Positions 9,166 to 33,515 of a stretch of 35,131 bases of DNA are shown in pieces. The notes under the pieces are model-generated. The model searched no databases, was not told where the DNA came from, and saw nothing but the letters and a program-made list of their open reading frames with translations. A program made the position numbers and the translations under genes. Source of the stretch: an uncultured Balneola sp. (lineage in GTDB: Bacteria > Bacteroidota > Rhodothermia > Balneolales > Balneolaceae); contig CAJXQC010000029.1 of NCBI GenBank assembly GCA_913058495.1, positions 1 through 35,131 of the forward strand, given 5' to 3'. Positions within the stretch are counted from its first letter, which is position 1. Each line of letters opens with the position of its first letter.

Positions 9166-9194
9166 TTGAAAAATGTAAGCGCTTTCATTATCAT
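9166..9194 (+). promoter_or_regulatory. Sigma70-like promoter of the starch locus
   Basis: TTGAAA (9166-9171), a 17-bp spacer and TATCAT (9189-9194) form a sigma70-type promoter, 33 bp before the ATG at 9228. The LacI-type operator fills the spacer. Bacteroidota use a different consensus (TTG and TAnnTTTG), which is not seen here. The assignment rests on the match and on the overlap with the operator, not on a mapped transcript start. Confidence 0.5.
9174..9187. promoter_or_regulatory. LacI/CcpA-type operator
   Basis: TGTAAGCGCTTTCA fits the cre-like consensus TGWAAGCGYTWWCA at all 14 positions and has the central CpG that LacI-family hinge helices kink. It lies between the -35 and -10 elements, a position in which bound repressor would exclude polymerase. 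The only LacI-family regulator in the window (21433-22422) is encoded in the downstream block, so it is the natural candidate ligand. No equally good site was seen elsewhere in the window. Confidence 0.75.
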
Positions 9195-9227
9195 TCTTTC
9201 ACCTTGGTAAAAAACTGTTAGCAATCA

Positions 9228-10901
9228 ATGCGTGATCATTTAATTTTATTATCCGGTTTGCTGTTTCTTTTTATGGGAGCGCTTTCCTGTACGGAAAAAG
9301 CTGATGATGATGTATTAGCGCAAATCAACGATTACTCGATTACCAAGATTCATTTCGAGAATGCCTTCAAAGAATATTACCACCGTACCGGAAGAGCTAT
9401 AAGTTCAAGCCCCTCTACAAAACTCTCCGTTTTAAACGCAAAATTCGATAATTATGTGCTAGCTACCTACGCGGAAGACAAAGGGTTGGATAGAACAGAG
9501 GAAGCCATTCAAAAAAGAGGAGAGATAGAAAGAAGAGTTTTAAATGAAGAATATCTGAATCAGGTCATTCTCAAAGATGTACAGGTTAGTGATACTGAGC
9601 TCAATCAATACTTTGTTCGGTTCAATACAACATTAAGAGCTTCGCATTTATTTGCCCATGATCTTGAATCAGCTAATGAAATATATAAGAGGTTACAAAA
9701 CGGCGAAGACTTTGAGGAATTAGCAAAAGAAGTATTCCAGACTCCTTATCTGGCAAACAATGGTGGAGATGTAGGCCGTTTTACTACTGATGAAATGGAT
9801 ATCGCTTTTGAAGAAGCTGCTTTTGGATTAAAGATCGATGAAATTTCAAAACCGGTCCCTACGGCTCAGGGTTATAGTATTATCAAACTTACCGATCGTT
9901 TTACAAAACCTATTCTCACCAAAAATGAATTCGCTAACAAAAAAGCTGAAATTGCTTCTTATGTTTATAAAAAGAAGAAAGAGCTTGCTACAAGAGAACA
10001 TCTGTACAACTTCCGCGACGATCTAGAATTTAATCCTGAGATTTTTGACGCTCTTTGGACTAAGATGAATGAGAATTACTCTTCAGCAATTTCTAAGGAT
10101 GCGGAATTCTTATCCAATCTGGTATCAGATAAAACTTTGGCTGTATATAACGATTTCGAATTTACTCTTGATGATTTTGCAGTCGAATACAGATTTACTC
10201 CGTTGTCTCAAATCAATGTAATAGAAGGGAAGAAGGGTTTTGAAAATTTTGTAATAGGGACTGCATTAAGAGCTTATTTATATAAGAATGCAAAAGAAGC
10301 AGGAATAGATGGTCAGAAAATTGTAAAAGAGTCGATAGAAGAAACATTTTATACTTTTCTGGCTCAAAGTGCGATTAAGGATCTTAAGAGTTCCATTTCA
10401 AACACAGAGCAGGAATTGAGAATTGCATATCAAAACAACGGCGAACGTTTTTATAAGCCAATAGAGGTTAATCTTTCCAGAATAGTTGTTGATACTGAAG
10501 AAAAAGCCAATTTTTTAATTTCAGAATTGAAGAAAGGAGCTGATTTCAAAGCATTGGTAGAAAAATACACCATAATTAATGAAGACCTGCTTACAAGTGG
10601 AGAATTGGGTTTCGAAAACGTCAAAAATTATGGCTCTTATGCCCCTAAAATTTCTGAATTAAAAGTAGGCGAGATATCAGAAGTGATTAATTATCAAACA
10701 GGGCAATACACTATTTATAAGATGAATGGAAAGATCGAAGGTCGCCCTTTAACATTTAATGAAGCCAAAGAATCAGTGGATGCATTTTTGTTGAATAAGA
10801 AATTAGAAGCCATAAAGGACAAGACGATTAAGGATGTTAAAGAAAAGCATAATGCTCTTATTGATATCGAAAAATTAAATGAAATTACTATTCAAATCTG
10901 A
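9228..10901 (+). CDS. Lipoprotein peptidyl-prolyl isomerase (SurA/PpiC parvulin type)
   Basis: A 557-residue exported chaperone-like protein. The signal sequence ends in the lipobox ALSC with C21 as the likely lipidated residue. A SurA-type helical region follows, then a first parvulin domain (about 135-240: ASHLFAH, NGEDFEELAKEV, NNGGDVGRF, AQGYSIIKL), and a second, more diverged parvulin-like segment (about 395-500: VNLSRIVVDTEEKANF, GADFKALVEKY, GELGF, TGQYTIYKM). It should assist folding of outer-membrane proteins in the periplasm. It is the first gene after the LacI-type operator and ends 8 bp before the TonB-dependent receptor, so it may act as a folding helper for this locus's barrels and secreted proteins. 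That dedication is inference. Confidence 0.85.
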   Translation: MRDHLILLSGLLFLFMGALSCTEKADDDVLAQINDYSITKIHFENAFKEYYHRTGRAISSSPSTKLSVLNAKFDNYVLATYAEDKGLDRTEEAIQKRGEIERRVLNEEYLNQVILKDVQVSDTELNQYFVRFNTTLRASHLFAHDLESANEIYKRLQNGEDFEELAKEVFQTPYLANNGGDVGRFTTDEMDIAFEEAAFGLKIDEISKPVPTAQGYSIIKLTDRFTKPILTKNEFANKKAEIASYVYKKKKELATREHLYNFRDDLEFNPEIFDALWTKMNENYSSAISKDAEFLSNLVSDKTLAVYNDFEFTLDDFAVEYRFTPLSQINVIEGKKGFENFVIGTALRAYLYKNAKEAGIDGQKIVKESIEETFYTFLAQSAIKDLKSSISNTEQELRIAYQNNGERFYKPIEVNLSRIVVDTEEKANFLISELKKGADFKALVEKYTIINEDLLTSGELGFENVKNYGSYAPKISELKVGEISEVINYQTGQYTIYKMNGKIEGRPLTFNEAKESVDAFLLNKKLEAIKDKTIKDVKEKHNALIDIEKLNEITIQI

Positions 10902-10909
10902 AGCAGTGT

Positions 10910-13861
10910 ATGAACATTAAAAAGCTACTACCGGTATTATTTCTATTTGTTAGTGTTGGGGTACAGGCGCAGTCAGGGAAAATTACGGGTAAAATTCTGG
11001 ATGCCGAAACCGGTGAGGCTCTGATAGGAGCAACAGTTGGGATAAAAGGATCTACAAAAGGTGCTGTAGCAGATATTGATGGTAATTATCTGATGTTAAA
11101 TGTAGGTCCGGGTACTTATACTTTGGAAGCAAGATACATTGGTTATGCTACTTTGGCTGTTCAGGAAGTAATCGTAAGAACTGATTTGACCACGGAGCAG
11201 GATTTTAGACTAGAACTGGAAGCGTTTGAAGGCGAAGAAATTGTTGTAGTGGCAACTCGTCAACCTGTTTTAAAAGATGTGACCAGTTCTGAATCCAGAG
11301 TAAGCAGTGAAGAAATTAAAAAGCTGCCTGTTCAGGAAGTTTCCGATGTAATCGGACTTCAAGCCGGAGTAAACGTAGATAATGGAGGGGGAATTCATAT
11401 CAGAGGTGGCCGAACTTCAGAGGTTTCCTATGTTGTGGATGGAATCAGGGTTACAGATGATTATGACAGGTCTAACGGGGTAAGAATCGAAAATGAATCT
11501 GTACAGGAGCTACAGGTAATATCCGGTTCTTTTAATGCAGAACATGGACAAGCGCTTTCAGGAATCGTAAATGTAGTTACCAAGTCGGGAGGTAATCAGT
11601 TTGATGCTTCTGTAAATGCATGGACGGGTAGCTATATGGCTACAGCTCAGAGTGATCTATATGATGGTATCGGAACGGGTTTTAATAATTTAAATCCGAA
11701 CAGAATGTATAATCTGTCTGCGTCTGTTTCAGGGCCAATTATAAAAGACAGACTTACATTTTTTGTAACGGCCAGACGGTTTGAGAATGAAGGACATTTA
11801 ACCGGAAGAAATGCTTTTTCACCTCACGGGCAATTCAGGGATACATTGGCATTGGGTACTGATTTTGATTCGTACAGAACTATCTATAATGAAAGGGTAG
11901 ACTTCAGTAAATCATGGTATTCTGTTGATACTGTTAATTTCCAGGGGACCGATAGATTGGTGTTAACAGATGACGGCACCAGAGACAGTTCAATAGTAAA
12001 TATGAATAATTTTCAAAGCACGAGTGTTCAGGGAAATCTCGAGTATAGGTTTTCAAAGTTTTTGAAATTCAATTTAATAGGTTCATATGGTCTTGAAGAA
12101 GGTCAGGGGTATGATCATCAGAATAAGTTAGTACCTTTGGGAAGAGGTACTGGTTTTAGAAATAATTATGCACTTAATTTTAAAACAACTATAACACCTT
12201 CCTCCAAAACTTTTCTTGTTGTAAATCTGGCCAACAGGTATAATGAACAAAAAAATCATTTGTATGATGATCCTTGGGATCCACGCTATTTTAATTTTGA
12301 CAGAGTAGTTGAGTTTTACTCACCCGCTGAGCAAAGTATACCCGGCGCGGCTCAGTTCAGTTTTTATGGGACAGACAATAACCGTTTTTTCAGATCGACA
12401 GATACATTTATCGGGAAGGCTGAAATTTCCAGTCAGGTTAATGAAAACCATTATATAAAAGCGGGTATTAATCTTCAACTTGATGAAGTAAGTTTTGAAA
12501 GTGTTTCCTTAGTTCCTTTTACTGATCCATCCATAAGTTTTCCTCCCGGAACTCCTCAAGAGCTCAAACCATTCGTAAAGTTGGGTTTCCCTGAATTAAA
12601 TACACCGGGTTATCAGAAATATTCTGAATCTCCGCGAAATTTAGGTGCTTATATTCAGGATAAGATCGAATTTGATAATCTGATCATTAATGTTGGATTG
12701 AGATTCGATTATTTTGATCCTAACTCCAGAGTTGTTGCCGATTTAGAAGATCCTGATATCACTTCCCCTACAAAACAAGAAAATCAGTACAGAGATCTTA
12801 ACAATAATGGCCAGCAAGATGACAATGAGCCCGATGTAACTTTAGAAGAACGTCAGCAATATTGGTATAAAGATACCAGTATCAAAACACAGCTTAGTCC
12901 CAGAGTAGGTGTGTCATATCCTATAAATGATCGTGGTGTGCTGTATTTTTCATATGGTTATTTCTTTCAGGTTCCTTCTTATAACTTCATGTACACAAAC
13001 AGCAGAGTTTTTGTAGGAGAGCGAAGCGGGAATTTGGGTTTATTCGGTAATCCTGATCTGAAACCGGAAAGATCTACACAGTATGAGTTGGGTTTAAAAC
13101 AGGAAATTTTTGATGGAACTGCAATTGAGCTCACAGGTTATTATAAAGATACCAGAGACTATGTGTCCTCCAGACCACAAGTAACCGGGGCAGCATCTAC
13201 AAATTATGGTATTTATTTCAACAGGGATTTCTCTAAGTCAATTGGATTTACTTTCGCCTTCAACCAATATGTAAGTCAGCGCTTTAATTTTGGGTTAGAC
13301 TATACTTTTAGCTCTGTGGAAGGAAGTAATTCAGATCCAAATTCAGAATACTTTGATATCGTAAATGCAGGAACTCAGATTGATTCAACCAATCAGACTA
13401 CATCTACAACAAAATTAATACAGCCATTAAATTGGGACAGAACACATATTGTAAATGGTTCTATGTTTTATTCAGGCAATAGTTGGGGTGCTAATTTGGT
13501 AACCAAATTCAGTACTGGAACTCCGTATACACCTCAAACTGATATTCCCGGTGTGGAAATCGGGGTAGGAGCAAGTACCAGAGATCTGAGAAACACATCA
13601 CGACTTCCAACAAGATTAACCGTGGATCTTAATACATACAAAAATATCAATTTACCAAACGGTTCCAGTATGGAGCTTTTTCTGAATATTTATAACCTGC
13701 TTGATAGTAAGGTTATAAACAATGTATATGGAGACTCAGGTGAAGCAACTGCACCGTTACCGATCAATACTGTAGGTACTGCAGACCCGGGATTTTATTC
13801 AAATCCTTCTTTTTATGCAGAACCAAGACGAATTCAATTAGGACTTTCAATCTCTTTTTAA
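10910..13861 (+). CDS. TonB-dependent outer-membrane transporter, SusC-like
   Basis: 983 residues with a Sec signal peptide ending in VQAQ (about residue 21). Next is an N-terminal CarboxypepD_reg-like domain (about 24-105: ITGKILDAETGEALIGATV), a TonB-box-like EEIVVVATR, a plug domain (about 120-230: LPVQEVSDVIGLQAGV, IHIRGGRTSEVSYVVDGIRV), and a 22-strand-type barrel ending in the aromatic terminus LSISF. It probably takes up maltodextrins across the outer membrane using TonB energy. The substrate is inferred from the flanking amylases, pullulanase and LacI regulator, not from the receptor itself. No SusD-type lipoprotein follows; the next gene, 3 bp away, encodes a large secreted protein. 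Confidence 0.92.
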   Translation: MNIKKLLPVLFLFVSVGVQAQSGKITGKILDAETGEALIGATVGIKGSTKGAVADIDGNYLMLNVGPGTYTLEARYIGYATLAVQEVIVRTDLTTEQDFRLELEAFEGEEIVVVATRQPVLKDVTSSESRVSSEEIKKLPVQEVSDVIGLQAGVNVDNGGGIHIRGGRTSEVSYVVDGIRVTDDYDRSNGVRIENESVQELQVISGSFNAEHGQALSGIVNVVTKSGGNQFDASVNAWTGSYMATAQSDLYDGIGTGFNNLNPNRMYNLSASVSGPIIKDRLTFFVTARRFENEGHLTGRNAFSPHGQFRDTLALGTDFDSYRTIYNERVDFSKSWYSVDTVNFQGTDRLVLTDDGTRDSSIVNMNNFQSTSVQGNLEYRFSKFLKFNLIGSYGLEEGQGYDHQNKLVPLGRGTGFRNNYALNFKTTITPSSKTFLVVNLANRYNEQKNHLYDDPWDPRYFNFDRVVEFYSPAEQSIPGAAQFSFYGTDNNRFFRSTDTFIGKAEISSQVNENHYIKAGINLQLDEVSFESVSLVPFTDPSISFPPGTPQELKPFVKLGFPELNTPGYQKYSESPRNLGAYIQDKIEFDNLIINVGLRFDYFDPNSRVVADLEDPDITSPTKQENQYRDLNNNGQQDDNEPDVTLEERQQYWYKDTSIKTQLSPRVGVSYPINDRGVLYFSYGYFFQVPSYNFMYTNSRVFVGERSGNLGLFGNPDLKPERSTQYELGLKQEIFDGTAIELTGYYKDTRDYVSSRPQVTGAASTNYGIYFNRDFSKSIGFTFAFNQYVSQRFNFGLDYTFSSVEGSNSDPNSEYFDIVNAGTQIDSTNQTTSTTKLIQPLNWDRTHIVNGSMFYSGNSWGANLVTKFSTGTPYTPQTDIPGVEIGVGASTRDLRNTSRLPTRLTVDLNTYKNINLPNGSSMELFLNIYNLLDSKVINNVYGDSGEATAPLPINTVGTADPGFYSNPSFYAEPRRIQLGLSISF

Positions 13862-13864
13862 ACA

Positions 13865-16800: not shown

Positions 16801-17680
16801 GTACTTTTTTGCTACACAAAGTGTTTCTAAGGTCTCTGATTATGAATTAGTAGTAGGAGCGAATGTCGGATTCGGACAGTCTACAGAGAGAGAAATTGAA
16901 GTAGCCCCGGGATCCTTCTTTACTGCTCCATCAGAACCGACCAATTTCAAAATATTTAATACATATACAGAAGAAGAAGTTGATTATGCATATTTAGATT
17001 TAAACAGAGAAAATACTCCTTTTTCTCCGGGCAGGTGTGATCCTACCACTAATGCTCCGAATAATTATGTATCACCTGATCCGGGAATATTTTCTGCAGT
17101 AGCAGGGTTAAATGGTCAATGTTCAGACATTGTTTATGTAATTGAAGATGCCCGAGAATTTCAAGACACTCTTACATATCGGTTTGAGTTGAGAGCTCAA
17201 ATTTCGAATAACAGTTTAACAACAAGAAATCCTGATGCTGGGGATACTTTAGAGGTTTTTACTACCAAGCCGTTTTCCAGAAATGATCGTTTTCAATTCA
17301 GAATGGATCCGGAGAATTTACCAAGTGTAGACTCTGATTCGGCAAAAAGTGCACTGGATGATATTTTAGTTATTCCGAACCCATATAAGGTTTCCAGTAT
17401 TTATGAACAGGAAGCCGCAGGAGGAAGCAGACAGCAAAACAGAGAAATTCATTTCAATGGTTTGCCGGTGCCTTCTACGCTGAGAATATTTACATCATCA
17501 GGGGTGCTTGTAAGAGAAATTGAGGTGACCTCTTCCAATGTTCAAGGTGAAAACGGAGGAACTTATATATGGGATATGCTCACCAAAGATAATTTAGAGA
17601 TAGCTTATGGAATCTACATTTATCATGTAGAAGCTAAGGGTGTAGGAAACAAGACAGGTAAATTTGCGGTGATTAAATAA
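13865..17680 (+). CDS. Large secreted surface protein with FnIII-like and T9SS-type C-terminal domains
   Basis: 1271 residues of unknown specific function. A signal peptide ends near SGAQ (about residue 26). The first 300 residues are a Trp/Tyr-rich domain I do not recognise. Three acidic DxDNDxD-like motifs (about residues 316, 433 and 529: GIDNDGDSD, GLDNDFDG, SFDNDNDW) resemble thrombospondin type-3 calcium sites. A fibronectin-III-like segment starts near 695 (PPIVSAVPGDGKVTLYWETN, then YKIYRSTDPSF). The last 100 residues (NPYKVSS, LRIFTSSGVLVREIEV, GIYIYHVEAKG, GKFAVIK) have FlgD/T9SS type A sorting architecture. It may be a cell-surface partner of the SusC-like receptor in place of SusD. 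It overlaps the next gene by one base (TAATG), so translation of the two is probably coupled. Confidence 0.75.
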   Translation: MNKNTFNIKGLFILLFVALFPVFSGAQDYVPSEERSSFEDRKKSTMDANRLRASYFNTGHAGRRNNTSLDELIFEFPRNTNREYMYFMSVHFGTEVQAQNSSDVVHIVNVASFKTNRDGSQNWSLNPIEGYSRDDSKEIARSDRGPASPLGNTWPDSWPDKFEDGGDGWAGSWNGFFGRDQFNADLEFYYKAGDDRYTRYSTGTFRPDNTDPTRGGLAIVMDTRILAWSQILINSVHFNLFEITNDGSYDYPRMSFGLWIADFVAGGGPTDQPVFDNLRAIAYLTDTDRNNAPSSFDGLPIGEMGLSFLETPGNAGDGIDNDGDSDTYDPENADFYDPENVDLFRLLLEENGGFYASATLKDTVVREFEAADFDSRTINVGDKIVLIDEDGTRIIREYDGNSFQSQGITYNLGASFTVQEELLPLSDPNFGVHIDGLDNDFDGLIDENTPNHLEKTTFVNGNSITKPVRFINYLYFNDGDSLQQGLIVSNQEIRARISSDQDFADLVNDTYDGRFQNHSTSAPMIDEGRGDSFDNDNDWNESFDDVGIQGDPDTPSEGQGDGKATSGAGTTFPGEPNIDKTDVSETDLIGVSRAIIFSAGALQVSLDSDIWFNYLIPGEFDVVGNPGTDQDIYVSSGLFPLRVGESQSFAVAISAAASSSPTGTAAQDRTQLNNNLDQARVAYEADYQFAVAPDPPIVSAVPGDGKVTLYWETNSEFSFDRYLNNISGNGFDFEGYKIYRSTDPSFEDIFNVTDAYGNATYYSDIAIFDKNNGIQGLHPVDVNGVKFDMGNDSGLQRSFVDTDVVNGKTYYYAVTGFDYGYVPAGISPSESPIQISQGPDGSISFGVNVVQVRPSRSQAGYINPDKPQATIVQGSPGGTVSVDIIDPFELKADNLYEVTFEDTLIDGGAEPDTLKTQNFTLRNITDGANDTLIARSPNVNGGNNPITEGFTISMTNVETFGVNESRSGWNETGNPEPHQYFFATQSVSKVSDYELVVGANVGFGQSTEREIEVAPGSFFTAPSEPTNFKIFNTYTEEEVDYAYLDLNRENTPFSPGRCDPTTNAPNNYVSPDPGIFSAVAGLNGQCSDIVYVIEDAREFQDTLTYRFELRAQISNNSLTTRNPDAGDTLEVFTTKPFSRNDRFQFRMDPENLPSVDSDSAKSALDDILVIPNPYKVSSIYEQEAAGGSRQQNREIHFNGLPVPSTLRIFTSSGVLVREIEVTSSNVQGENGGTYIWDMLTKDNLEIAYGIYIYHVEAKGVGNKTGKFAVIK

Positions 17681-18702
17681 TGAGTTCAATGAAAAAGATA
17701 TTCTGCATTTGTTTGTTTCTTGTTTTATCAGGAACAGGAAGTTCTGTTTTTGCACAACTTTCAAAAATAGGTACTACAGCCGGTGATTTTTTAAGATTTC
17801 CTGTAGGTGCAAGAGCTTCATCTATGTCCGCCTTTGCGGCAACTGTGAACGATCCGTCAGCAATGGTTTTAAACCCTGCAGGTTTGGCCGAGTTGAATGA
17901 CGAAGAAGTACTTATAGAGTTTACAGATTATTATCTGGATTTTACACACAGCTATGTTGGTATCGGCATACCTACAAAAAAAGGTGTGGCCGGAATTCAT
18001 GTACTAGCCATGAATTATGGAGAATTTGAAGAAACCACTGAACAAGCTCAGGGTAAAACAGGGCGAACATTTGGTGCCTATTCTGTCACGGTTGGAGGTA
18101 GTTATTCACAATATCTGACAGAAAAATTATCTGTTGGGGGAACCCTGAAATTTGTTCATGAGCAAATTGAGGATGTTTCTGCATCTGGATTGGCTTTTGA
18201 TGTTGGTACGGTATTTATTACTCCATTCGATGATATCAGGTTTGGAGTAAGTGTAACCAATATAGGTTCAAAAATGCAGCTGACAGGAAACGGTCTTATT
18301 ACAGAATGTGATCTGGATGATAGTAGTTCCGGAAATAATGAAACTGACTGCTATCTGGCTACACAAGAATATGATTTACCATTAATGCTCAGAGTTGGTT
18401 TTGCATGGGATGCTTATACAAGCGACGATATCAGAGCAACATTAACTTTAGATGGTAACAATCCATCAAATAATGTTCAGAACATTAGTGTGGGAGGAGA
18501 AATTTCGCTGTTAAATGATACGGTATTTCTTAGAGGAGGAGTTCCTTATATCGGTCAAAATAACAGCAGGGAGACATTCAATGCCGGAGTGGGAATTAAG
18601 TATCAGGTAGACAGTTCTTTAAAACTTGGATTTAATTACGCTTATCACGGATATGAATACTTAGGTGATGTTAACAAACTAAGCCTTCAGGTTTATTTTT
18701 AA
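17680..18702 (+). CDS. PorV/PorQ-family outer-membrane beta-barrel protein
   Basis: 340 residues with a signal peptide ending in VFAQ (about residue 26). The mature start TTAGDFLRFPVGARASSMS, followed by NDPSAMVLNPAGLAEL, is the hallmark of PorV/PorQ (FadL-related) barrels. Alternating strands then run to a terminal aromatic (LSLQVYF). PorV carries T9SS substrates by their C-terminal domains from the SprA translocon to the sortase. A copy inside a carbohydrate locus, between two proteins with T9SS-like C-terminal domains, suggests a locus-dedicated shuttle or anchor. The ATG overlaps the previous stop by one base; an internal ATG three codons later (17689) gives a more typical MKK signal start and is a possible alternative. 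Confidence 0.82.
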   Translation: MSSMKKIFCICLFLVLSGTGSSVFAQLSKIGTTAGDFLRFPVGARASSMSAFAATVNDPSAMVLNPAGLAELNDEEVLIEFTDYYLDFTHSYVGIGIPTKKGVAGIHVLAMNYGEFEETTEQAQGKTGRTFGAYSVTVGGSYSQYLTEKLSVGGTLKFVHEQIEDVSASGLAFDVGTVFITPFDDIRFGVSVTNIGSKMQLTGNGLITECDLDDSSSGNNETDCYLATQEYDLPLMLRVGFAWDAYTSDDIRATLTLDGNNPSNNVQNISVGGEISLLNDTVFLRGGVPYIGQNNSRETFNAGVGIKYQVDSSLKLGFNYAYHGYEYLGDVNKLSLQVYF

Positions 18703-18734: not shown

Positions 18735-21368
18735 ATGATGAATAAAGCTACTAAACTTGTGCTAACATGTTTGCTGATGATCTTCGGGATTTCTGCAACA
18801 TCTATGGCTCAGGTAACAAAAATACGTGACGCACGTGGCATGGATGGCCAGGAAGTTACGATCGTAGGTATCATGAATACGCCAGACTACGGTTTTAATG
18901 ACGGACAATTTTTTGTTCAGGATACAACCGGAGGTATAAACGTATTTTATGATGACGTTGGAGGAGCGAACAATCAGGATAGTTCAGCATTTTTAGGCTG
19001 GACAAAAGGCGACACTCTTCAAATTATAGGAACAATAGGTTCTTTTGGACAGCAAGTACAAATTGCCCCAAGTTCCGTAACCATTTTAGGTACAGGAGAA
19101 GCTTCGAGTGTTCCTGTAACCTCAATAACACAAGCAGATCTTAGTGTGGATTCCAAACATCAAGGTATGTTAGTGAAAATAGAATCAGTTGGTTTGGCTG
19201 ATGGTGAAACATGGCCGGCTGATGCTCAAACATCTTCAGGAGTAAGTTTAGATGTTGCTACAGCTGACAGTGCATTTATATTAAGGATCGATAGAGATGA
19301 ATCCTATTATGACGGCGCACCAGCTCCTACTGAAGCATTTAATTTGACTGGTGTACTTGCCAGATTTAATTCTGATGTACAGGTTATGCCATTTGACTCT
19401 ACCGATGTACAGAATATCGTTAAAGTTACTTTCATGGTTAATACTGCTACAGCCCCTGATACCGTAATGGGAGACCATTATGTAGGTGTGTTTGGTGCAA
19501 TTTCAGGACCAAACGGCGCAGGAAACCCATACTTAGGTCAAACTGTTGATTGGAATAACTCTACTGATATTGTTGCTGACAATCAAGGCGGTGACTATTG
19601 GTCAGTTACTTTTGATATGGCTGCTGGTGATACTTATACCTACAAGTATTGGTTGGGGTCAGATAAAGATACAGAACTTGCCGGAGGAGGTTGGGAAAGC
19701 GGAGATAACAGAGAATTCACTTTAGATTTTGATCAAGCTTCCGACTCAGTTGCTCCATTGAATTGGTATGAAACAAGAATGGCTCCATTTACTTCAGAAG
19801 AAGATAGTGTTTCTCTTTACTTCAGAGTTAATGTTGGAGCACAAGCTCAGGACGGATCATTCGATCCTGAAACATTTAAAGTTGGTGTTCGTGGTAACGG
19901 CGCTTTCTTTACCAATGACTGGGGAACCGGAGACTTCCTTGAAAAAGGTGGCCAAACGGGAGATAATTTATTCTATGAAGGTGTTGTAAGAGCACAGAAA
20001 GATTCTGCAGCAGCAATTGATGGTTCAATTGAATATAAGTTTGTTCTTGAAGCAGCTGATGGAACAGTAACTTGGGAATCCACAGATAACAGGCCGATAA
20101 ACATTCCTGCTCAGGATTCTACTGTTCAATGGGTCTTTTTCAATAACACTCCTCCAACAGATGCAGTTATTGTAAACACAACACTTAGCTTTGAAGTTAA
20201 TGTTGGAATTCTGGAAGGTTTAGATCTTTTCAATTCAAGTATTGATACAGTATCAGTAAGAGGTACATTCAATAGTTGGGGTGAAGCCAGAATGAACTTT
20301 AATCAAGTGCTCGGTACATACGAAGCAAACAACTTACCGTACACAAAAGCTGAAGGAACTGAAGAAAAATACAAGTATTACATTAAGTGGGATGCTCGAA
20401 GAGATTCGGCTGAAAGCGAATTTTTCTTAGAAGGAATTCAATCAGCAAATACCGGATGGGAAGAGCCGGGAGTAACAGGTGGTGCTGACAGATCATTCAC
20501 AATTGAGAATAAAGCCAATCAGGATAAACTTTCTGAATTCTATAACGGTGTAGAACCGGAAGCTTTATTAACTGCGAATAATGTTGAAACAGGTGCTACA
20601 AGTGTAACATTCAGTATTGATATGTCACCGGCACTTCAACATACTACTCCATTTTTACCTGCATCAGATTCTGTATTCCTTTTTGTGGATACTCCTTTCT
20701 TTGCACTTACAAATGGAATAACAGTTCCTGGTGATAACGGTGAAAACTTTATTACAACTTCAGAATCTGAAAGAGAAAGACTTCGATTTACTGATGATGA
20801 TGGAGATATGGTTTATGAACTAACTTTAGATCTTATGCTGCCAACTCTAAACCACATTGGTTTCAGAATAGCATACGGTGAGCCAACTTCAGCGGATGGT
20901 TCTCTTGTGGCAAATGGTGGTGGATTTGATGCAGGTCGTAGACATTACCAATACATTGCGCCTCAAGTAGATTCTGAGCTTAATGTTACATGGGCTTCAT
21001 CATATTCTTTCCCGCAATTAACCTGGAAAGCTTCAGATCTTCCATTTGAGCAACCACCAAGTTATACAACTGTAGGAAATGAAGATGAATTAGCAAATGT
21101 GGAAACCTTTAGATTAAATCAAAACTATCCGAATCCATTCAACCCAAGCACTACCATTAGTTTCAATCTGCCAAATGCTGCAGATGTAACATTATCGGTA
21201 TACAATGTTCTTGGACAAAGAGTGGCTACGTTGTTAAACAACAGAAAATATACTTCTGGTAGCCATACTTTGAGTTTTGATGCAAGCAACCTTGCTTCCG
21301 GTATTTATATTTACCGAATTCAAGCAGGTTCGTACACAAGTCAAAAGAGAATGACTTTAATTAAATAA
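18735..21368 (+). CDS. Multidomain T9SS-secreted protein, putative surface starch binder
   Basis: 877 residues with a signal peptide ending in SMAQ (about 26). An OB-fold-like domain follows (about 27-225: VTIVGIMNTPDYGFNDGQFF, then GDTLQIIGTIG). Four consecutive beta-sandwich modules each begin with a similar strand (VKVTFMVN about 228, VSLYFRVN about 358, TLSFEVN about 483, VTFSIDM about 630). They contain Trp-rich patterns such as SVRGTFNSWGEARMNF and YKYYIKW, reminiscent of CBM20/CBM48-type starch-binding folds. The last 90 residues are a classic T9SS type A sorting domain (NQNYPNPFNPSTTISF, LSVYNVLGQRVATL, GIYIYRIQ). It has no catalytic motif, so it is best read as a glycan-binding protein playing the part of SusE/F. 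Binding specificity is inference. Confidence 0.75.
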   Translation: MMNKATKLVLTCLLMIFGISATSMAQVTKIRDARGMDGQEVTIVGIMNTPDYGFNDGQFFVQDTTGGINVFYDDVGGANNQDSSAFLGWTKGDTLQIIGTIGSFGQQVQIAPSSVTILGTGEASSVPVTSITQADLSVDSKHQGMLVKIESVGLADGETWPADAQTSSGVSLDVATADSAFILRIDRDESYYDGAPAPTEAFNLTGVLARFNSDVQVMPFDSTDVQNIVKVTFMVNTATAPDTVMGDHYVGVFGAISGPNGAGNPYLGQTVDWNNSTDIVADNQGGDYWSVTFDMAAGDTYTYKYWLGSDKDTELAGGGWESGDNREFTLDFDQASDSVAPLNWYETRMAPFTSEEDSVSLYFRVNVGAQAQDGSFDPETFKVGVRGNGAFFTNDWGTGDFLEKGGQTGDNLFYEGVVRAQKDSAAAIDGSIEYKFVLEAADGTVTWESTDNRPINIPAQDSTVQWVFFNNTPPTDAVIVNTTLSFEVNVGILEGLDLFNSSIDTVSVRGTFNSWGEARMNFNQVLGTYEANNLPYTKAEGTEEKYKYYIKWDARRDSAESEFFLEGIQSANTGWEEPGVTGGADRSFTIENKANQDKLSEFYNGVEPEALLTANNVETGATSVTFSIDMSPALQHTTPFLPASDSVFLFVDTPFFALTNGITVPGDNGENFITTSESERERLRFTDDDGDMVYELTLDLMLPTLNHIGFRIAYGEPTSADGSLVANGGGFDAGRRHYQYIAPQVDSELNVTWASSYSFPQLTWKASDLPFEQPPSYTTVGNEDELANVETFRLNQNYPNPFNPSTTISFNLPNAADVTLSVYNVLGQRVATLLNNRKYTSGSHTLSFDASNLASGIYIYRIQAGSYTSQKRMTLIK

Positions 21369-21386: not shown

Positions 21387-21412
21387 CGCAGATGCTTTGA
21401 CCGGCATCTGCG
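21387..21412 (+). terminator. Hairpin between the binding protein and regulator genes
   Basis: CGCAGATGC (21387-21395) and GCATCTGCG (21404-21412) form a perfect 9-bp stem with an 8-nt loop, 18 bp after the previous stop. Only the weak T-rich TATTTAAT follows, so it may be a partial terminator, attenuator or mRNA-end stabiliser that lowers expression of the regulator and enzyme genes relative to the upstream surface genes. A possible TTG start at 21397 lies inside the loop, which argues against that start. Confidence 0.55.
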
Positions 21413-21432
21413 TATTTAATCAGATAGAAAAA

Positions 21433-22422: not shown

Positions 22423-22430
22423 CTATATTT

Positions 22431-27710: not shown

Positions 27711-27719
27711 AAAATATAC

Positions 27720-29078
27720 ATGCTTAAGCGAACTTTACTTTTATCCATTTTTGCAGCCTCGGTATTTGCGTCTTGCAATCCAACAGAAAAGCCGGTTGAG
27801 AAAAAACCAAGTCAGGTAGTACATCCTGAGTGGAGTAAAAATGCAAATATCTATGAAGTGAATATCCGTCAGTATTCTGAAGAAGGAACATTCAAAGCTT
27901 TTCAGGAAGATCTTCCTCGATTAAAAGAAATGGGTGTTAAGATCTTGTGGCTGATGCCCATACATCCAATTGGTAAGATCAACAGAAAGGAAACTGAAGA
28001 AAGCAGAGGAAGTTACTATTCTGTATCTGACTACAAAAAAGTAAATCCTAATTTTGGAACCGAAGAAGATTTTAAAAATTTGGTTGATGCAGCTCACGAA
28101 CAAGGTTTTAAGCTGATCATTGACTGGGTTGCTAATCATTCAGCATGGGATAATCCATGGACTGAAAACAAAGATTGGTATGAGTTGACAGAAGACGGAA
28201 ACTTCATGCCTCCAAGAGGAACGGATTGGTCGGATGTTATTCAGTTGAATTATGAAAGCGAAGAGATGCGTGCGGCAATGTTAGATGCTCTCGAATTCTG
28301 GGTTAGAGAATTTGATATTGACGGGTATCGCTGTGACGTTGCAGGAATGGTACCAACAGATTTCTGGGAAAACGCCCGAGTAGAATTAGACAAGATAAAG
28401 CCGGTATTCATGCTAGCTGAAGATGGAGAGCCTGAATTACTTCACAAAGCTTTTGATATGAATTATGCATGGGAATATGCTCATGTAATTCGTGAGATCG
28501 CTAAAGGAGAACAAACTTTTGAAGATCTGGACTCACTTTTTGAAAGAGACAGTAAACGCTTTCCTGACAATGCATACCGAATGTATTTCACTTCCAATCA
28601 TGATGAGAATTCATGGAATGGAACCGATCCTGAAATGTATGGAGATAATTTTGAGAATTTTGCAGTGTTGTCTGCTACCGTGAAAGGAATGCCATTGATC
28701 TATAACGGACAGGAAAGTGATTTGGATAAACGATTGGAGTTCTTCGAAAAAGACGAAATTGAGTGGAAAGAGTATAAATATGCTGACTTCTATAAGATGT
28801 TGCTGACTTTGAATACAGAAAACGAATCACTTTGGAACGGGGATTTTGGTGGAGAAACGATCAGAGTTGAATCACCTGAAGGCACTTATGCTTTTAAAAG
28901 AAAGAAAGGAGATCATGAGATTTGGGTAGCTATCAATAATAATACGGAAGCTACAATGATCAGCTTTCCTGATTGGAGTCACGAAACATATTCCGTATAC
29001 GGAGTTGTTGAAGGAGTAACTGATTTTTCAACGATAGAATTACCGGCAAACGAGTGGTTCATCATTTCAACAAATTAA
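27720..29078 (+). CDS. GH13 alpha-amylase lipoprotein
   Basis: A compact 452-residue GH13 enzyme. The lipoprotein signal is clear (VFASC, C19 lipidated). The barrel starts almost at once (ANIYEVNIRQYSEEGTF) with regions DWVANHS, GYRCDVAGM (nucleophile D206), LAEDGE (acid/base E234) and SNHDEN (D295), followed by a short beta C-domain. There are no binding modules and no T9SS tail. It should sit on the outer membrane, facing the periplasm or the surface, and trim maltodextrins. A Cys stands directly before the nucleophile (RCD), an uncommon choice at that site. The gene begins 9 bp after the preceding GH13 gene. Confidence 0.92.
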   Translation: MLKRTLLLSIFAASVFASCNPTEKPVEKKPSQVVHPEWSKNANIYEVNIRQYSEEGTFKAFQEDLPRLKEMGVKILWLMPIHPIGKINRKETEESRGSYYSVSDYKKVNPNFGTEEDFKNLVDAAHEQGFKLIIDWVANHSAWDNPWTENKDWYELTEDGNFMPPRGTDWSDVIQLNYESEEMRAAMLDALEFWVREFDIDGYRCDVAGMVPTDFWENARVELDKIKPVFMLAEDGEPELLHKAFDMNYAWEYAHVIREIAKGEQTFEDLDSLFERDSKRFPDNAYRMYFTSNHDENSWNGTDPEMYGDNFENFAVLSATVKGMPLIYNGQESDLDKRLEFFEKDEIEWKEYKYADFYKMLLTLNTENESLWNGDFGGETIRVESPEGTYAFKRKKGDHEIWVAINNNTEATMISFPDWSHETYSVYGVVEGVTDFSTIELPANEWFIISTN

Positions 29079-29101
29079 AAACTAATAAAAGGGATACTTA
29101 A

Positions 29102-30469
29102 ATGTCTGAACAGCAACAAGATACTAAGCCACGTCTGAGTTTTTGGCAAATATGGAATATGAGTTTTGGGTTTTTGGGAATCCAATTCGGATTTGCACTT
29201 CAAGGTGGATTCATGTCCCGGATTTTCCAAACATTGGGTGCTGCTAAAGATGATATTCCATTGCTTTGGATAGCAGCTCCTCTCATGGGATTGTTAGTAC
29301 AACCAATAATCGGATATTTAAGTGACCGGACTTGGAGTATACGTTTTGGAAGGCGAAGACCTTATTTCCTGATCGGTGCATTATTAAGCTCTATCACATT
29401 ATTTTTTGTTCCTCATTCGCCATATTTATGGATAGCGGTTGGTTGTTTGTTCATCCTTGATGCTTCCATCAATATTAGTATGGAACCATTCAGAGCATTA
29501 GTAGCAGATAAATTGCCCGAATCACAGAGATCTTATGGATTCGTTGTTCAAACGTTTATTATCGGTATCGGTACCTGGATTGCCAGTAACTTGCCTTGGA
29601 TGGTAAGTCAGCTTGGTGTTGCAAATGACGCTGCTCCCGGAGTAGTTCCCATGTCAGTAAAAGTTGCATTCGGAATAGGAGCTTTTGTTTTTATCGCAAG
29701 TATACTTTGGACTGTATTTACCACAGATGAATACCCACCTGAGGACATGGAAGCATTTGAAAAAGAGAAAAAAGATAGTGCAGGATTTTTTACCGGCGTT
29801 AAAGAGATCTTTTCAAACATCGGTAGTATGCCGGTTGTAATGAGAAAATTGGGAGTGGTTCAATTTTTTAGTTGGTTCGCTTTCTTTACAATGTGGAGCT
29901 TTGCGGTTCCGGCACTGACAGAACACGCTTTTTTGGCACCTGTTCCAATGCCCGATGCAGTAGATTTTGATACAGCCAATGTTGCATATAATAACGCTGC
30001 AAATCTTGTTGGTTCTTATATGGGTACATATGGATTATCTTCTATGTTTTTTGCGCTGCTTTTGACTTTTGTTACCAGCAAGATCAGAATCAACAGAAAG
30101 TTGGTTCATTTTGGATCGCTTTTAGTCGGTGGACTTGGATTTATAAGTATGTACTTCGTTTCTCCGGAAAATACCGGAATGCTGAATTTGAGTTTTGTTT
30201 GTGTGGGAATCGCTTGGGGAAGTATTCTCTCCATGCCATACGCAATGCTTTCGAGTAGTATAGATCCAAAGAAAATGGGTTTGTATATGGGGCTCTTTAA
30301 CATGTTTATAGTAATTCCACAGATCATTGCAGCTTTGGGAGGGATCAACTTTCTCTATAAAACGATCTTTGGAGAAGCGACCATAGGAACAATGCTTCTG
30401 GCAGGAGTTTGTTTAGCAATTGCAGCCTTCAGTAACTTCCTTATTACAGAAGAGGAAGCCATTAAGTAG
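29102..30469 (+). CDS. MFS sugar transporter, SLC45/MalT-like
   Basis: 455 residues with about 12 transmembrane helices. The loop between helices 2 and 3 carries the family signature [18 protein letters not shown], and helix 4 has [20 protein letters not shown], as in SLC45-type sucrose/maltose carriers. It probably imports maltose or short maltodextrins into the cytosol, the last step of the pathway encoded around it. It starts at ATG 29102 after AAAAGGGATACTTA, which includes a fair ribosome-binding site (AAAGGG). It is followed by 70 bp that carry the toxin-antitoxin operators. Confidence 0.9.
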
Positions 30470-30482
30470 CAGTAACCTTGAT

Positions 30483-30521: not shown

Positions 30522-30539
30522 TTATTTTAAGATATCATT

Positions 30540-30815
30540 ATGGCAAAGAAAGACAAAGATATTGTTTGGTTTGGGATGAAATTAACTCCCGAAGAAAAAC
30601 AGAAGATCGAATTACTTGCTGAAAGAAAGGGTGTTTCTAAAAAAGAAGCCGTAATGAATGCTGTAAATGAACAGGTTACAGAATACGAGATCGTAGCCAA
30701 ACCGGGATCAACATTAGAAAAATTGCAACACATCGTTGGTATAGCTGATGGTCCGGGAGATCTTTCAACGAATCCTAAATACATGGAAGATTTTGGCAAA
30801 GACAGCCTTTCTTGA
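30540..30815 (+). CDS. Ribbon-helix-helix antitoxin (VapB-like)
   Basis: 91 residues. A short basic N-terminus leads into a beta-strand (IVWFGMKLT) and two helices (PEEKQKIELLAERKG and SKKEAVMNAVNEQV), the ribbon-helix-helix DNA-binding layout. The C-terminal part GPGDLSTNPKYMEDFGKDSL resembles the toxin-binding tails of known VapB/RHH antitoxins (GDLSTN...Y...FG). It probably neutralises the PIN protein encoded next and represses its own promoter through the palindromes just upstream. Its 3' end overlaps the toxin start by 23 bases, typical of coupled antitoxin-toxin pairs. Confidence 0.85.
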   Translation: MAKKDKDIVWFGMKLTPEEKQKIELLAERKGVSKKEAVMNAVNEQVTEYEIVAKPGSTLEKLQHIVGIADGPGDLSTNPKYMEDFGKDSLS

Positions 30816-31215
30816 TACCGGTCCGTTAGTCTCTTTCATCGACAAGAGGGAATACCATCATACTTGGATTAAGTCTGTTTTTTCTGAAATTAATGTTTCA
30901 TTAAAAACTAATACGGCAGTAATTACAGAAGCTTTCTTTCTTTTGAAGCGATCGAATCGAGGAGAGGAGGGGCTTATGAAAATGATAAATAGTGGCTTTT
31001 TAGAAATTCAAGATTCATTTTTTTCAAATCAGAGATTCGTTTTGGATGTAATGAATAAATACAATGATGTGCCATGCGCATTTGCAGATGCAAATCTGCT
31101 TGCAATGTTTGAAAATGATAAAAAGTCTGTAATTATTTCTACAGATTCCGATTTTCTGATCTATCGAGATTCTCAAGGAAAAAAACTCAACCTGATTTCA
31201 CCTTATTTAAAATGA
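30793..31215 (+). CDS. PIN-domain ribonuclease toxin (VapC-like)
   Basis: 140 residues from the preferred TTG at 30793, which places the PIN strand KTAFLDTGPL at the N-terminus as in the family. An ATG at 30748 would add 15 residues read wholly inside the antitoxin gene and is less likely. The acidic metal-binding set is complete: D8 (FLDTG), E46 (ITEAF), D99 (FADAN) and D118/D120 (STDSD). It should be an Mg-dependent endoribonuclease that inhibits translation when free of antitoxin; the RNA target is unknown. The toxin stop overlaps the pullulanase start as ATGA (31212-31215), so the module is physically coupled to the starch gene downstream. Confidence 0.85.
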   Translation: MAKTAFLDTGPLVSFIDKREYHHTWIKSVFSEINVSLKTNTAVITEAFFLLKRSNRGEEGLMKMINSGFLEIQDSFFSNQRFVLDVMNKYNDVPCAFADANLLAMFENDKKSVIISTDSDFLIYRDSQGKKLNLISPYLK

Positions 31216-33491
31216 AAGTATTCTATTCCATTCTTATAACATTAGTTTTCTCGGGTAACTTATATAGTCAGGAGAATGATGAGATCATTTCTGCTTTTAT
31301 AACAAGCGAGAAAATCATAGAAGTAAAACTTGATGACCACTTCGATGTAAATAAGATTGTGATAGTATCAACAGAAGAGTCTGTTCCCGTTTCCGATATT
31401 CAGGAAATCAAATCTAATGAATATCGTCTTATTGTGAATCAGGCTTTGGACTTCACTAAAAAATATGTAGTTAAAGTCGGTGATTCAGAAAAGCAGGCCC
31501 AACCTCACTGGAAGGCTATTGACAAGCTTTATACGTACGATGGTGAATTAGGCTCATTCTATAATTGGAACAAAACTGACTTTAAATTATGGGCTCCGCT
31601 TGCTTCAAAGGTTGTTCTGAATTTGTATGAAAAGGGATTGGATGAAGAACCCTATGAAACAATTGAATTAGGCAGAAAAGAAAAAGGAGTCTGGCATACT
31701 TCTATTCCCGGAAACCTAAAGGGAAAGTATTACACCTATTCTGTAACTAATTACAGAGTAACTAAAGAAGTAATGGATCCATATGCTAAATCAATGGCAG
31801 AAACAGTACGAGAAACATTTTTTACTCCCAGAGGCGCAATTGTAGATCAATTTTCCACCGGACCAAGTTTAGATTTTGCACAAATTGAAGGATATGAAAA
31901 AAGAGAAGACGCCATTATTTGGGAAGCTCATGTTTGGGATTTTACCGTAGATCCGGATATCCAAACAGGAGCTCCATACGGAACTTATTCTGCATTTTCA
32001 GAGCGACTTGATTACATCAAAGATCTTGGAATAACCCATATTCAATTGCTTCCTGTGCTCAGTTACACATATTCAGATGAAATAGATCGGGATAGAAATT
32101 TGAATTATGAATTGGGAGCAAATTATAATTGGGGCTACGGTCCTGATAACTATTTCTCTCCGGAAGGAATGTATTCCGTCGACCCTACTGATCCGGAATT
32201 AAGGATCAAAGAACTGAAAGAGCTCATTAATAACATCCATGCAAAAGGAATGGGTGTTACTTTGGATGTAGTTTACAATCATACCGCCAGACTGGAATTT
32301 CTGGAAGATATCGTTCCCGGCTATTATCACTTCATGGATGCAAAAGGTATTGCTAAACAAAGTTATGGGGGAGGGAGACCGGGCTCTACTCACGCAATGG
32401 CGAGAAAACTGATTGTCGATTCAATTCTCTACTGGACAAAAGAATATAAAGTGGATGGTTTTAGATATGACCTTATGGGAGATCTGGATGCTGAAACTAT
32501 ACAGACTGCATACGATGAAGCCAAAAAGATCAATCCGGATATACTAATGGTTGGTGAGTGCTGGAGAACTTTTGCCGGTGACGATGGAGAATCTGTTATC
32601 CCTGCCGATCAGGATTGGATGGATCAAACCAATAGTGTTGTATGTTTTTCGGATGAGATCAGAAATGAATTGAAATCCGGCCATGGTATTGAAGGCGAAC
32701 CTAGGTTTGTTACAGGAGGTGCAAGGTCGATCCAAACCATTTTCAATAATGTAATCGCCAAACCTGATAACATGACTGAAGATGACCCCGGAGATGTTCT
32801 GCAGTATGTATCTGTGCACGATGGACTTACCCTTCATGACATGATTGCTTATTCGATCAAAAAAGATCCGAAAGATCACCAAGAAGAAATTCATAAAAGG
32901 ATCAGATTAGCCAATACAATTGTGTTAACCAGTCAAGGGGCAGCTTTTTTACATGCCGGTCAGGAATACGGTAGAACAAAGCAATGGTTTTCTTCAACCT
33001 CACCGGAAAGAGAATTCATGAAAGTAGATGAATTCGAAAATCCTTACTTGATTCGAAACTCCTACGACGCTTCAGCCGCAGTGAATATGTTTGACTGGGA
33101 TAAAGTGACTGAGGAAGGAATACACAAACAAACCATGAAATACACAAGCGGTCTCGTGGCTTTGCGGAGATCCACAGATGCATTTCGATTAGGAAATGAA
33201 AAACTTGTTTCCGAAAATGTTTATTTGCTCGAAAGTAAAGATATCAAAGAAGAAGACCTTGTATTGATGTTCAGGGCTGAATCTACAATGGGAGAGGGCT
33301 ATTACGTTATTGTAAATGCGGATTCAGAACAAAGAATGATCTCTTTAAATATCGATCTTTCTTCAGGAACTGTATTGGTAGACTCTGATGAAGCCGGAAC
33401 TGAAGCTGTATCTGAAGTATCAGGAATTCAGATCAATTCGGATTCAATTATAGTCGATCCACTTACATCTGTAGTAATAAAAGCCAAGTAA
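31212..33491 (+). CDS. pulA: Type I pullulanase (GH13)
   Basis: 759 residues with a Sec signal (NLYSQ, about residue 20) and no lipobox or T9SS tail, so it is probably periplasmic. An N-terminal beta domain and a CBM48 module (about 105-195: FKLWAPLASKVVLNLYE) precede the barrel. The type I pullulanase signature is present as YNWGYGP (305-311), with Gly310 where the usual form has Asp. GH13 regions: DVVYNHT, GFRYDLMGD (D420), VGECWR (E449) and VSVHDG (D537). It would debranch alpha-1,6 links in imported dextrins before the other GH13 enzymes finish them. The start overlaps the toxin stop by four bases. It is the last enzyme of the locus. Confidence 0.92.
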   Translation: MKVFYSILITLVFSGNLYSQENDEIISAFITSEKIIEVKLDDHFDVNKIVIVSTEESVPVSDIQEIKSNEYRLIVNQALDFTKKYVVKVGDSEKQAQPHWKAIDKLYTYDGELGSFYNWNKTDFKLWAPLASKVVLNLYEKGLDEEPYETIELGRKEKGVWHTSIPGNLKGKYYTYSVTNYRVTKEVMDPYAKSMAETVRETFFTPRGAIVDQFSTGPSLDFAQIEGYEKREDAIIWEAHVWDFTVDPDIQTGAPYGTYSAFSERLDYIKDLGITHIQLLPVLSYTYSDEIDRDRNLNYELGANYNWGYGPDNYFSPEGMYSVDPTDPELRIKELKELINNIHAKGMGVTLDVVYNHTARLEFLEDIVPGYYHFMDAKGIAKQSYGGGRPGSTHAMARKLIVDSILYWTKEYKVDGFRYDLMGDLDAETIQTAYDEAKKINPDILMVGECWRTFAGDDGESVIPADQDWMDQTNSVVCFSDEIRNELKSGHGIEGEPRFVTGGARSIQTIFNNVIAKPDNMTEDDPGDVLQYVSVHDGLTLHDMIAYSIKKDPKDHQEEIHKRIRLANTIVLTSQGAAFLHAGQEYGRTKQWFSSTSPEREFMKVDEFENPYLIRNSYDASAAVNMFDWDKVTEEGIHKQTMKYTSGLVALRRSTDAFRLGNEKLVSENVYLLESKDIKEEDLVLMFRAESTMGEGYYVIVNADSEQRMISLNIDLSSGTVLVDSDEAGTEAVSEVSGIQINSDSIIVDPLTSVVIKAK

Positions 33492-33515
33492 TTTCAGAAA
33501 TATTCTTTTTGAAAT
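33491..33515 (+). terminator. Hairpin at the end of the starch locus
   Basis: ATTTCAGAAA (33491-33500) pairs with TTTTTGAAAT (33506-33515) over ten positions including one G-T wobble, around a 5-nt loop, and begins on the last base of the pullulanase stop. No T-tract follows, so it is only a candidate 3' boundary. Confidence 0.35.

Follow-up and report, generated by a model that had tools for sequence, protein, structure and literature searches.

Described importers and the locus examined here

SusCD pairs are regarded as the hallmark of glycan uptake in the Fibrobacterota–Chlorobiota–Bacteroidota (FCB) superphylum and used as the marker for polysaccharide utilisation loci. In the SusC-SusD-SusE(F,G) system of Bacteroidota, a TonB-dependent receptor, surface glycan binders and enzymes of glycoside hydrolase family 13 (GH13) are encoded in one locus. 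Here we describe a starch locus of an uncultured Balneola sp. that combines the same elements in a genomic slot shared with that system. The window is the whole contig C29 (35,131 bases); the genome measures 3.40 Mb and is 99.4% complete. The locus spans positions 9228-33491 of the window. Unlike in Sus, the receptor lies outside the SusC/RagA family, its partners carry type IX secretion system (T9SS) tails and no lipoprotein signal, the predicted fold is rich in β-structure, and an extra PorV-like barrel is present.

Partial parallels exist among attachment pairs of T9SS and other barrels. The cited sections of the literature describe PorU as held by PorV and PorZ by PorQ (PMC5562754), dedicated PorP/SprF barrels from neighbouring genes as retaining or exporting type B proteins (PMC9143113, PMC12618676), and the extracellular BamH as anchored by the FadL-family barrel BamG (PMC12611786). 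Like the PorZ-PorQ and PorU-PorV pairs, the present locus combines a T9SS-exported protein with a PorV/PorQ-family barrel, the retained tail being an analogy here; unlike in those pairs, the barrel is not the core PorQ or PorV and is encoded together with a TonB-dependent receptor and sugar enzymes. Pairs of a type B C-terminal domain with PorP/SprF share with it a dedicated barrel gene directly 3' of the gene of the exported protein, but the locus has a type A-like tail and a PorV/PorQ-family barrel instead of a type B tail and PorP.

In PMC9530828, the alginate polysaccharide utilisation locus of Rhodothermus marinus is printed with the order tonB, T9SS sorting-domain protein, PorV/PorQ-family protein; the likeness lies in the printed labels and their order. 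That locus differs in its substrate, alginate, and in its smaller T9SS protein (2,181 nt), and its figure names the T9SS and PorV/PorQ proteins hypA and hypB. A term search of the main text returned neither SusC nor SusD, and the locus section does not interpret the trio as a SusCD substitute. The gene trio is already in print, which supports generality across glycans. In open-licence PMC text, no description of the trio as a SusCD substitute was found.

The best reading of the window is a locus for starch or malto-oligosaccharide utilisation in which a receptor cassette would carry out outer-membrane import in place of SusC-SusD-SusE. We consider it probable that this cassette is a glycan importer equivalent to SusCDE, whose surface partner leaves the cell by T9SS and is probably retained by a barrel of its own. 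That the cassette substitutes functionally for SusCDE is well supported by comparative genomics, and we infer that the receptor, a 1271-aa protein and the barrel may physically assemble. The first-pass annotation of this DNA had proposed that T9SS-delivered proteins capture glycan at the surface instead of SusD/E/F lipoproteins. The idea holds insofar as the slot is occupied by SusC-SusD-SusE in sister species and neither the 1271-aa protein nor, as far as its model can be judged, an 877-aa protein resembles SusD in sequence or predicted secondary structure. Its parts have changed: the receptor is not a SusC, the unit consists of receptor, 1271-aa protein and barrel, and the 877-aa starch-binding protein is an accessory to it.

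The cassette consists of the following features:
9228..10901, + strand: PpiC/SurA-type peptidyl-prolyl isomerase (PPIase); PF00639 89.8 bits, N-terminus lipoprotein-like by eye
10910..13861, + strand: TonB-dependent receptor outside the SusC family; PF00593 96.5, PF07715 42.1, PF13715 69.8 bits
13865..17680, + strand: 1271-aa surface partner, proposed functional counterpart of SusD; supersandwich-like domain, Fn3-like stretch, type-A-like T9SS tail, signal peptide by eye
17680..18702, + strand: cassette barrel of the PorV/PorQ family; NF033709 157.7 bits (cut-off 90)
18735..21368, + strand: 877-aa starch-binding surface protein with type A T9SS tail; PF00686 41.2, PF18942 38.5, PF18962 50.3 bits; DUF5689, CBM20-like

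Exchange of cassettes in the starch locus

Among 128 genomes of the order, 33 have the starch locus, as marked by an orthologue of its 782-aa GH13 enzyme (E ≤ 1e-150). Three kinds of cassette occupy the slot 5' of LacI-GH13 in the relatives examined: A, the window type (PPIase-receptor-1271-barrel-877); B, a divergent receptor-1271-barrel-877 set without PPIase; and C, which is SusC-SusD-SusE-like (L117-L119). GcpE precedes the cassette in the window, in 8/8 B loci, in 3/3 C loci and in every A locus whose stretch extends to GcpE. The three C-type SusCs score 748.8 (L117), 753.0 and 742.1 bits on TIGR04056. The SusD of L117 reaches 115.3 bits on PF07980 and 450.7 bits on the starch-SusD model NF033071, short of the curated cut-off of 725, and SusE (PF14292) scores 67.9 (L117) and 77.2 bits.

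All three cassettes were found inside one genus (g3). Across five loci of this genus, LacI is 79-91% and the 782-aa GH13 enzyme 76-81% identical, with A and B receptors at 38%; B receptors of four genera share 68-82% mutual identity. Pairwise identities of receptor, 1271-type protein and barrel correlate at 0.98-0.99 among themselves (receptor-1271 0.99, receptor-barrel 0.98) and at 0.90-0.91 with the 877-type protein (receptor-877 0.91). For these four proteins the correlation is 0.37-0.43 with LacI, 0.48-0.55 with two GH13s and 0.29-0.51 with GcpE (receptor-LacI 0.41, receptor-GH13 0.51-0.53), and LacI correlates with the 782-aa GH13 at 0.88. On a tree of concatenated flank proteins, built by quick search for the 28 loci in which LacI and GH13_971 were of sufficient length and supported by the SH-like approximate likelihood-ratio test (SH-aLRT) only, cassette type needs at least 6 changes; A and B alone need 5, and starred SH-aLRT branches force five. 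A single change is enough for A and B on the receptor tree. L120 (G071), where a divergent SusC-SusD lies beside LacI-GH13, was left out of the flank tree. These comparisons show the receptor, 1271-type protein, PorV-like barrel and 877-type protein behaving as one exchangeable unit in the slot that SusCDE holds in sister species.

When NF033071 was run over 20 genomes, pieces of 260-273 bits were found at the slot in the three C genomes, none reaching 725, and no piece above 95.6 bits anywhere in the 17 A/B genomes. Conversely, the C genomes gave no match to the 1271 family (E ≤ 1e-10), and they hold 4-7 PorV-family matches versus 7-16 in eight A/B genomes. Within this sample, therefore, the receptor cassette and starch SusCDE are alternatives to one another and do not coexist. 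A search for SusD homologues near the receptor had been proposed at first pass; starch-type SusD is strong in only 3/20 genomes, the SusCDE ones.

The receptor and SusD homologues elsewhere in the genome

The receptor had been annotated as a SusC-like transporter. We rejected this assignment: it scores 85.9 bits on TIGR04056 (SusC/RagA), far under the cut-off of 368.25, and the SusC/RagA signature TIGR04057 has no match in it at E ≤ 1 in the NCBIfam scan. The genuine SusCs of L117-L120 score 727-753 bits on TIGR04056, and TIGR04057 is present in them. The receptor is built of CarboxypepD_reg, plug and TonB barrel (PF13715, PF07715, PF00593), a set that is not SusC-specific; other receptors in the genome match TIGR04056 over the N-terminal stretch only.

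No match to the SusD families PF07980, PF14322 and PF12771 was found in the 10 core locus proteins (Pfam, E ≤ 0.01), nor to NF033071 at E ≤ 1 (NCBIfam; for the three GH13s, none among the matches listed). The initial statement that a SusD-type lipoprotein is missing is therefore correct for the locus, as judged from these 10 proteins, but the genome as a whole is not SusD-free, PF07980 having three matches elsewhere, two of them over cut-off. SusC genes over cut-off are present at four other loci, one of them split over two frames. Since SusC and SusD genes occur at other loci only, the genome uses SusCD, though not at the starch locus. The split SusC (L047, G000:C5:112660-115795) lies in two overlapping frames of 792 and 450 aa, a frameshift of either the genome or the assembly.

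These homologues could in principle provide SusD in trans to an otherwise ordinary Sus system. However, they adjoin their own SusCs; on NF033071 the genome's four proteins encoded where a SusD would be expected reach no more than 42.9 bits, against 436-451 bits for the SusDs of L117-L120; and the receptor is not a SusC. Starch-type SusD is strong only in the SusCDE genomes among the 20, and we rejected supply in trans as highly improbable. An in-house SusD hidden Markov model, built from 8 seeds that included the four proteins it went on to match (the seed L045:8332-9684 being SusD by position only, without an NCBIfam match), matched only the four SusDs of L117-L120 among 1099 open reading frames (ORFs) of 127 loci.

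Fold and tail of the 1271-aa protein

Three exported proteins with T9SS-type tails had been predicted, encoded from 13865, 18735 and 22431. For two of them TIGR04183 (cut-off 23) agrees, with 47.9 bits in the 877-aa protein and 46.3 bits in the 971-aa GH13. The 1271-aa protein encoded from 13865 has no TIGR04183 match at E ≤ 1 and no Pfam family at E ≤ 0.01, and its sole NCBIfam match is a PorZ tail at 20.4 bits (cut-off 260). Profile comparison with hhalign nevertheless aligned the tail of its family with type A T9SS tails over 61 columns to the C-terminus (probability 95.1, E 3.2e-8), whereas 11 other slices of the family, used as controls, all gave ≤0.4. The type B C-terminal domain TIGR04131 has no match in the 1271-aa protein at E ≤ 1.

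Residues 27-1170, without the tail, were modelled with AlphaFold2 from 64 sequences. The model is mostly β-structure and has a mean predicted local distance difference test (pLDDT) score of 89.5 and a predicted template modelling score of 0.80; helix amounts to ~8%, counting helices of at least 4. SusD has a largely helical, TPR-based fold, which the model does not show. VIA-align matched model residues ~9-815 to dextran dextrinase (Z 19.4, 257 aligned, root-mean-square deviation 3.2), and further to bacterial glucoamylase (Z 19.0), cellobiose phosphorylases (~18) and galactose mutarotases (~10-13). We take the matched domain to be the one named supersandwich (mutarotase-like); this fold is common in carbohydrate-active proteins. 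The match surfaced only in the second pass with VIA-align, which was confined to Foldseek candidates, and Foldseek's own ranking gave weak Fn3 matches only. Compared by sequence with solved structures, the 1271 family had no significant match (best Fn3-like E 0.15, PorU E 0.19).

The first-pass annotation had named a true SusD fold in one of the large proteins as refuting its idea; the 1271-aa model is β-rich with supersandwich matches. No SusD chain was among the 50 matches listed in the fold searches (Foldseek with the 1271-aa and 877-aa models, VIA-align with the 1271-aa model), which is no proof of absence. Neither in the 1271-aa nor in the 877-aa translation does the signal peptide, judged by eye, end in Cys, as a SusD lipoprotein's would. 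The nearest named 1271-type proteins are those of L140 (Balneolaceae, 64%), L127 ('Bacteroidetes bacterium UBA1860', 58%) and L132 (Balneolaceae, 53%), and conserved motifs of the family are common to cassettes of other gene contexts.

The cassette barrel and the 877-aa protein

A PorV/PorQ barrel encoded among the exported proteins, as initially annotated, is indeed present at 17680..18702. It passes the family model NF033709 (157.7 bits) and stays below both specific cut-offs, with 101.8 bits on PorQ (NF033711, cut-off 220) and 42.5 on PorV (NF033710, cut-off 250), scoring higher on the PorQ than on the PorV model. The core copies elsewhere in the genome pass, at 273.3 bits for PorV and 278.1 for PorQ; SprA (1484.5 bits) and PorU (1008.8 bits) are also present, and the core PorV adjoins PorU. 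By these scores the cassette barrel is to be regarded as dedicated and distinct from the genome's core PorV and PorQ. PF11751 (PorP/SprF) has no match in it at E ≤ 0.01, although the cassette-B barrel of L104 touches this family (23 bits, cut-off 22.3), and a sequence search of solved structures with the cassette barrel gave no match at E ≤ 1.

Two further loci of the same genome encode similar arrangements. L038 (G000:C22:12000-31000) has a 1045-aa receptor followed by a 727-aa protein, a barrel and a 428-aa protein, with T9SS-tailed neighbours. L039 (G000:C5:36000-55000) has a 984-aa receptor followed by a barrel, beside a 700-aa protein akin to the Fn3 stretch and tail of the 1271-aa protein.

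Foldseek related the model of the 877-aa protein to CBM20 and CBM26 starch-binding domains, behind two top rows that are long, poor matches to a mastigoneme protein (TM-score 0.09). The model covers residues 25-795 with ~6% helix and a mean pLDDT of 70.2; with 173 residues below 50, parts of it are too uncertain to judge. In cassette B, the 877-type identity beyond the tail comes from one named locus, L186 (27% identity, E 1.5e-11). The 877-type and 971-type labels in named loci were assigned by BLAST with seeds lacking T9SS tails; in non-starch loci of the order these labels are unreliable, as they may rest on the T9SS tail alone.

These data bear on a looser arrangement, in which the receptor needs no partner to import malto-oligosaccharides, ordinary T9SS processing fixes the 1271-aa and 877-aa proteins to the cell as independent surface proteins, and the barrel is only their shuttle, without any SusCD-like complex. 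PorV is known as a shuttle in the cited parts of PMC5562754 and PMC10994853, the tails of the 877-aa and 971-aa proteins are of the usual type A, and the clear starch-binding domains sit on the 877-aa protein. On the other hand, receptor, 1271-type protein and barrel occur together FCB-wide and switch as a block, and the genome has a separate core PorV next to PorU, so that a dedicated barrel per receptor would be needless for general shuttling. We consider this arrangement unlikely, though it retains some weight.

A second possibility is an export module, with receptor and barrel jointly moving T9SS-tailed proteins outward. Oar, a TonB-dependent transporter, is reportedly needed for PopC secretion in Myxococcus. 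The T9SS-tailed genes do adjoin the receptor, and PorV-family barrels act in export according to the cited part of PMC10994853. Against this, the slot is common with SusCDE importers, SprA and core PorV are already present in the genome, and sugar importer genes adjoin the module in the five loci sampled. An export module is thus very unlikely.

A receptor–1271–barrel module across the FCB superphylum

Relatives of the 1271-aa protein were detected in 62/128 genomes of the order (E ≤ 1e-10). From the matches listed, 40 loci were picked by hand before their neighbours had been seen. The receptor gene lies directly before the 1271-type gene in all 40 (as a broken piece only in L115), and a PorV-family gene directly after it in 36/36 loci with room. 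Nine of the 40 (L108-L116) are non-orthologous loci with other gene contexts. For these three genes the order is maintained; conservation of the locus's gene order in relatives had been put forward as a check.

A further 80 named loci were retrieved with only the 1271 family as the criterion. L157 and L190, which lack a 1271-type ORF of 700 aa or longer, were dropped from the synteny counts, which leaves 78. Receptor or barrel was found upstream in 68/71 loci with room there, and the barrel downstream in 51/60. Among the 54 loci with room on both sides, 45 have the order receptor>1271>barrel and 50 have both partners within two genes. According to their records, the named loci belong to Balneolota, Rhodothermota, KSB1, Calditrichota, Neomarinimicrobiota, Ignavibacteriota and others. 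The 1271 family was present at E ≤ 1e-20 in 113/296 genomes and 74/139 genera of a phylum sample drawn evenly. The unit of receptor, 1271-aa protein and its own PorV-like barrel can thus be described, from its gene neighbourhoods, as a recurring FCB-wide module and not a one-off starch locus.

Strand and spacing alone would be compatible with neighbouring surface genes that merely travel together. The unbroken adjacency in the order and the repeated block exchange speak against such hitchhiking, whose probability is next to negligible; chance neighbourhood was rejected on the synteny of the order loci and the named FCB loci.

By synteny, the PPIase gene lies 5' of the receptor in cassette A, whereas several paralogous cassettes (L108, L109 and L113-L115) have it after the barrel and not before the receptor. 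This suggests that a parvulin-type chaperone is repeatedly linked in function to the module. In L160, L163, L169 and L201, from Ignavibacteriales, Neomarinimicrobiota, KSB1 and an unclassified bacterium, the order is receptor, barrel, 1271-type gene, PPIase. L100 (G092:C1:3248500-3268400) has a tandem duplication, in the order receptor, 1271-type gene, barrel, a second 1271-type gene (946 aa) and a second barrel; its two barrels, each 357 aa, have similar starts and equal scores. G007, a genome of the window's genus, contains neither the 1271 family nor the 782-aa GH13.

In five other cassettes, 10 neighbouring proteins were identified as ABC sugar-binding proteins and permeases, SSF symporters, TrmB and GH130. 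They had been chosen by hand for suggestive gene size or start, so that occurrence is shown and not frequency. Import is favoured over export because of the SusCDE exchange together with these sugar ABC parts, symporters, TrmB and GH130 near other cassettes.

Proposed mechanism

We propose that the 1271-type protein passes by Sec to the periplasm and would then cross the outer membrane through the T9SS channel SprA. Its C-terminal domain may bind the adjacent PorV/PorQ-type barrel, which would carry it outward and retain it, on the model of PorZ held by PorQ and type B proteins by PorP/SprF. With barrel and receptor side by side, the β-rich 1271-type protein could therefore form an extracellular capture lid over the receptor, the task of SusD. 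The 877-type protein with its carbohydrate-binding modules (CBM) and the T9SS-tailed GH13 would bind and trim starch outside, like SusE/F/G. Oligosaccharides would pass through the receptor on TonB energy, be cut by periplasmic GH13s and be taken in by the MFS carrier, under LacI control, and the PPIase probably aids folding of the cassette's own proteins.

Several points weigh against this proposal. Contact between receptor, 1271-type protein and barrel, like starch binding and co-regulation, is predicted only, and a supersandwich fold by itself shows neither binding nor function. The motifs of the 1271 family that are shared across gene contexts may serve partner binding. The 877-type protein is exchanged along with receptor, 1271-type protein and barrel, and capture could therefore rest on it instead. 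Mirror-tree correlation cannot tell physical contact from joint inheritance, and the flank genes may themselves have recombined. Furthermore, 66/128 genomes of the order lack a 1271 match at E ≤ 1e-10; among the 54 named loci with room on both sides, four have the barrel before the 1271-type gene and a PPIase after it, and four lack one partner nearby.

A broader form of the proposal, to which we give even chances, is that the cassette represents a third class of TonB-dependent glycan importer, FCB-wide and not named before: a T9SS-exported supersandwich lid, permanently held by its own PorV/PorQ-type barrel, would fill the role of SusD without lipoprotein export, and paralogous cassettes would serve different glycans. 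If the cassette does the same job as SusCDE, SusCD-based searches overlook loci in Balneolota, Rhodothermota and deep FCB lineages, and T9SS gains a role in building nutrient importers. As exchange in the same slot is repeated, the two systems are swappable in one genomic context and the idea is directly testable.

Further features of the locus and its surroundings

The genes between 9228 and 30469 form a run on one strand with all gaps ≤32 bases, in line with the initial description of a single strand and gaps mostly under 35 bp. At its 3' side lie a PIN-domain gene and then the pullulanase (31212-33491). Pfam and NCBIfam assign to the locus a TonB-dependent receptor, a PorV/PorQ-family barrel, 3 T9SS-tailed proteins and 4 GH13-type enzymes (pullulanase counted). 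The originally listed content and order (three GH13 enzymes, pullulanase, LacI and a carrier, here MFS/GPH) were recovered. With an outer-membrane importer co-located with glycan enzymes and a regulator, this is a polysaccharide utilisation locus in the functional sense. The features 3' of the cassette are:
21397..22422, + strand: LacI-family regulator; PF00356 69.7 bits
22431..25346, + strand: GH13 enzyme with CBM48 and type A T9SS tail (971 aa); PF00128 71.7, PF02922 27.7, PF18962 44.8 bits
25362..27710, + strand: GH13 enzyme, neopullulanase/cyclomaltodextrinase-like; PF00128 167.7 bits, N-terminus lipoprotein-like by eye
27720..29078, + strand: GH13 enzyme; PF00128 118.3 bits, N-terminus lipoprotein-like by eye
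29102..30469, + strand: MFS/GPH sugar carrier of the inner membrane; PF07690 89.9 bits, TIGR01301 86.1 bits (under the cut-off of 511)
31212..33491, + strand: type I pullulanase; TIGR02102 909.2/1042.25 and TIGR02104 461.2/504.5 bits, both below cut-off; PF18033 81.7 bits

The PIN-domain gene (30748-31215; PF01850 22.9 bits, just under the cut-off of 23.6) splits the starch operon between the MFS carrier and the pullulanase. A small ORF (30540-30815) overlaps it, and the two are possibly a toxin-antitoxin pair. Further upstream in the window, 6322-7827 holds a tandem pair of rhomboid-family protease genes, the second with a C-terminal DUF6576; several relatives have genes of similar size 5' of GcpE, a likeness of size only.

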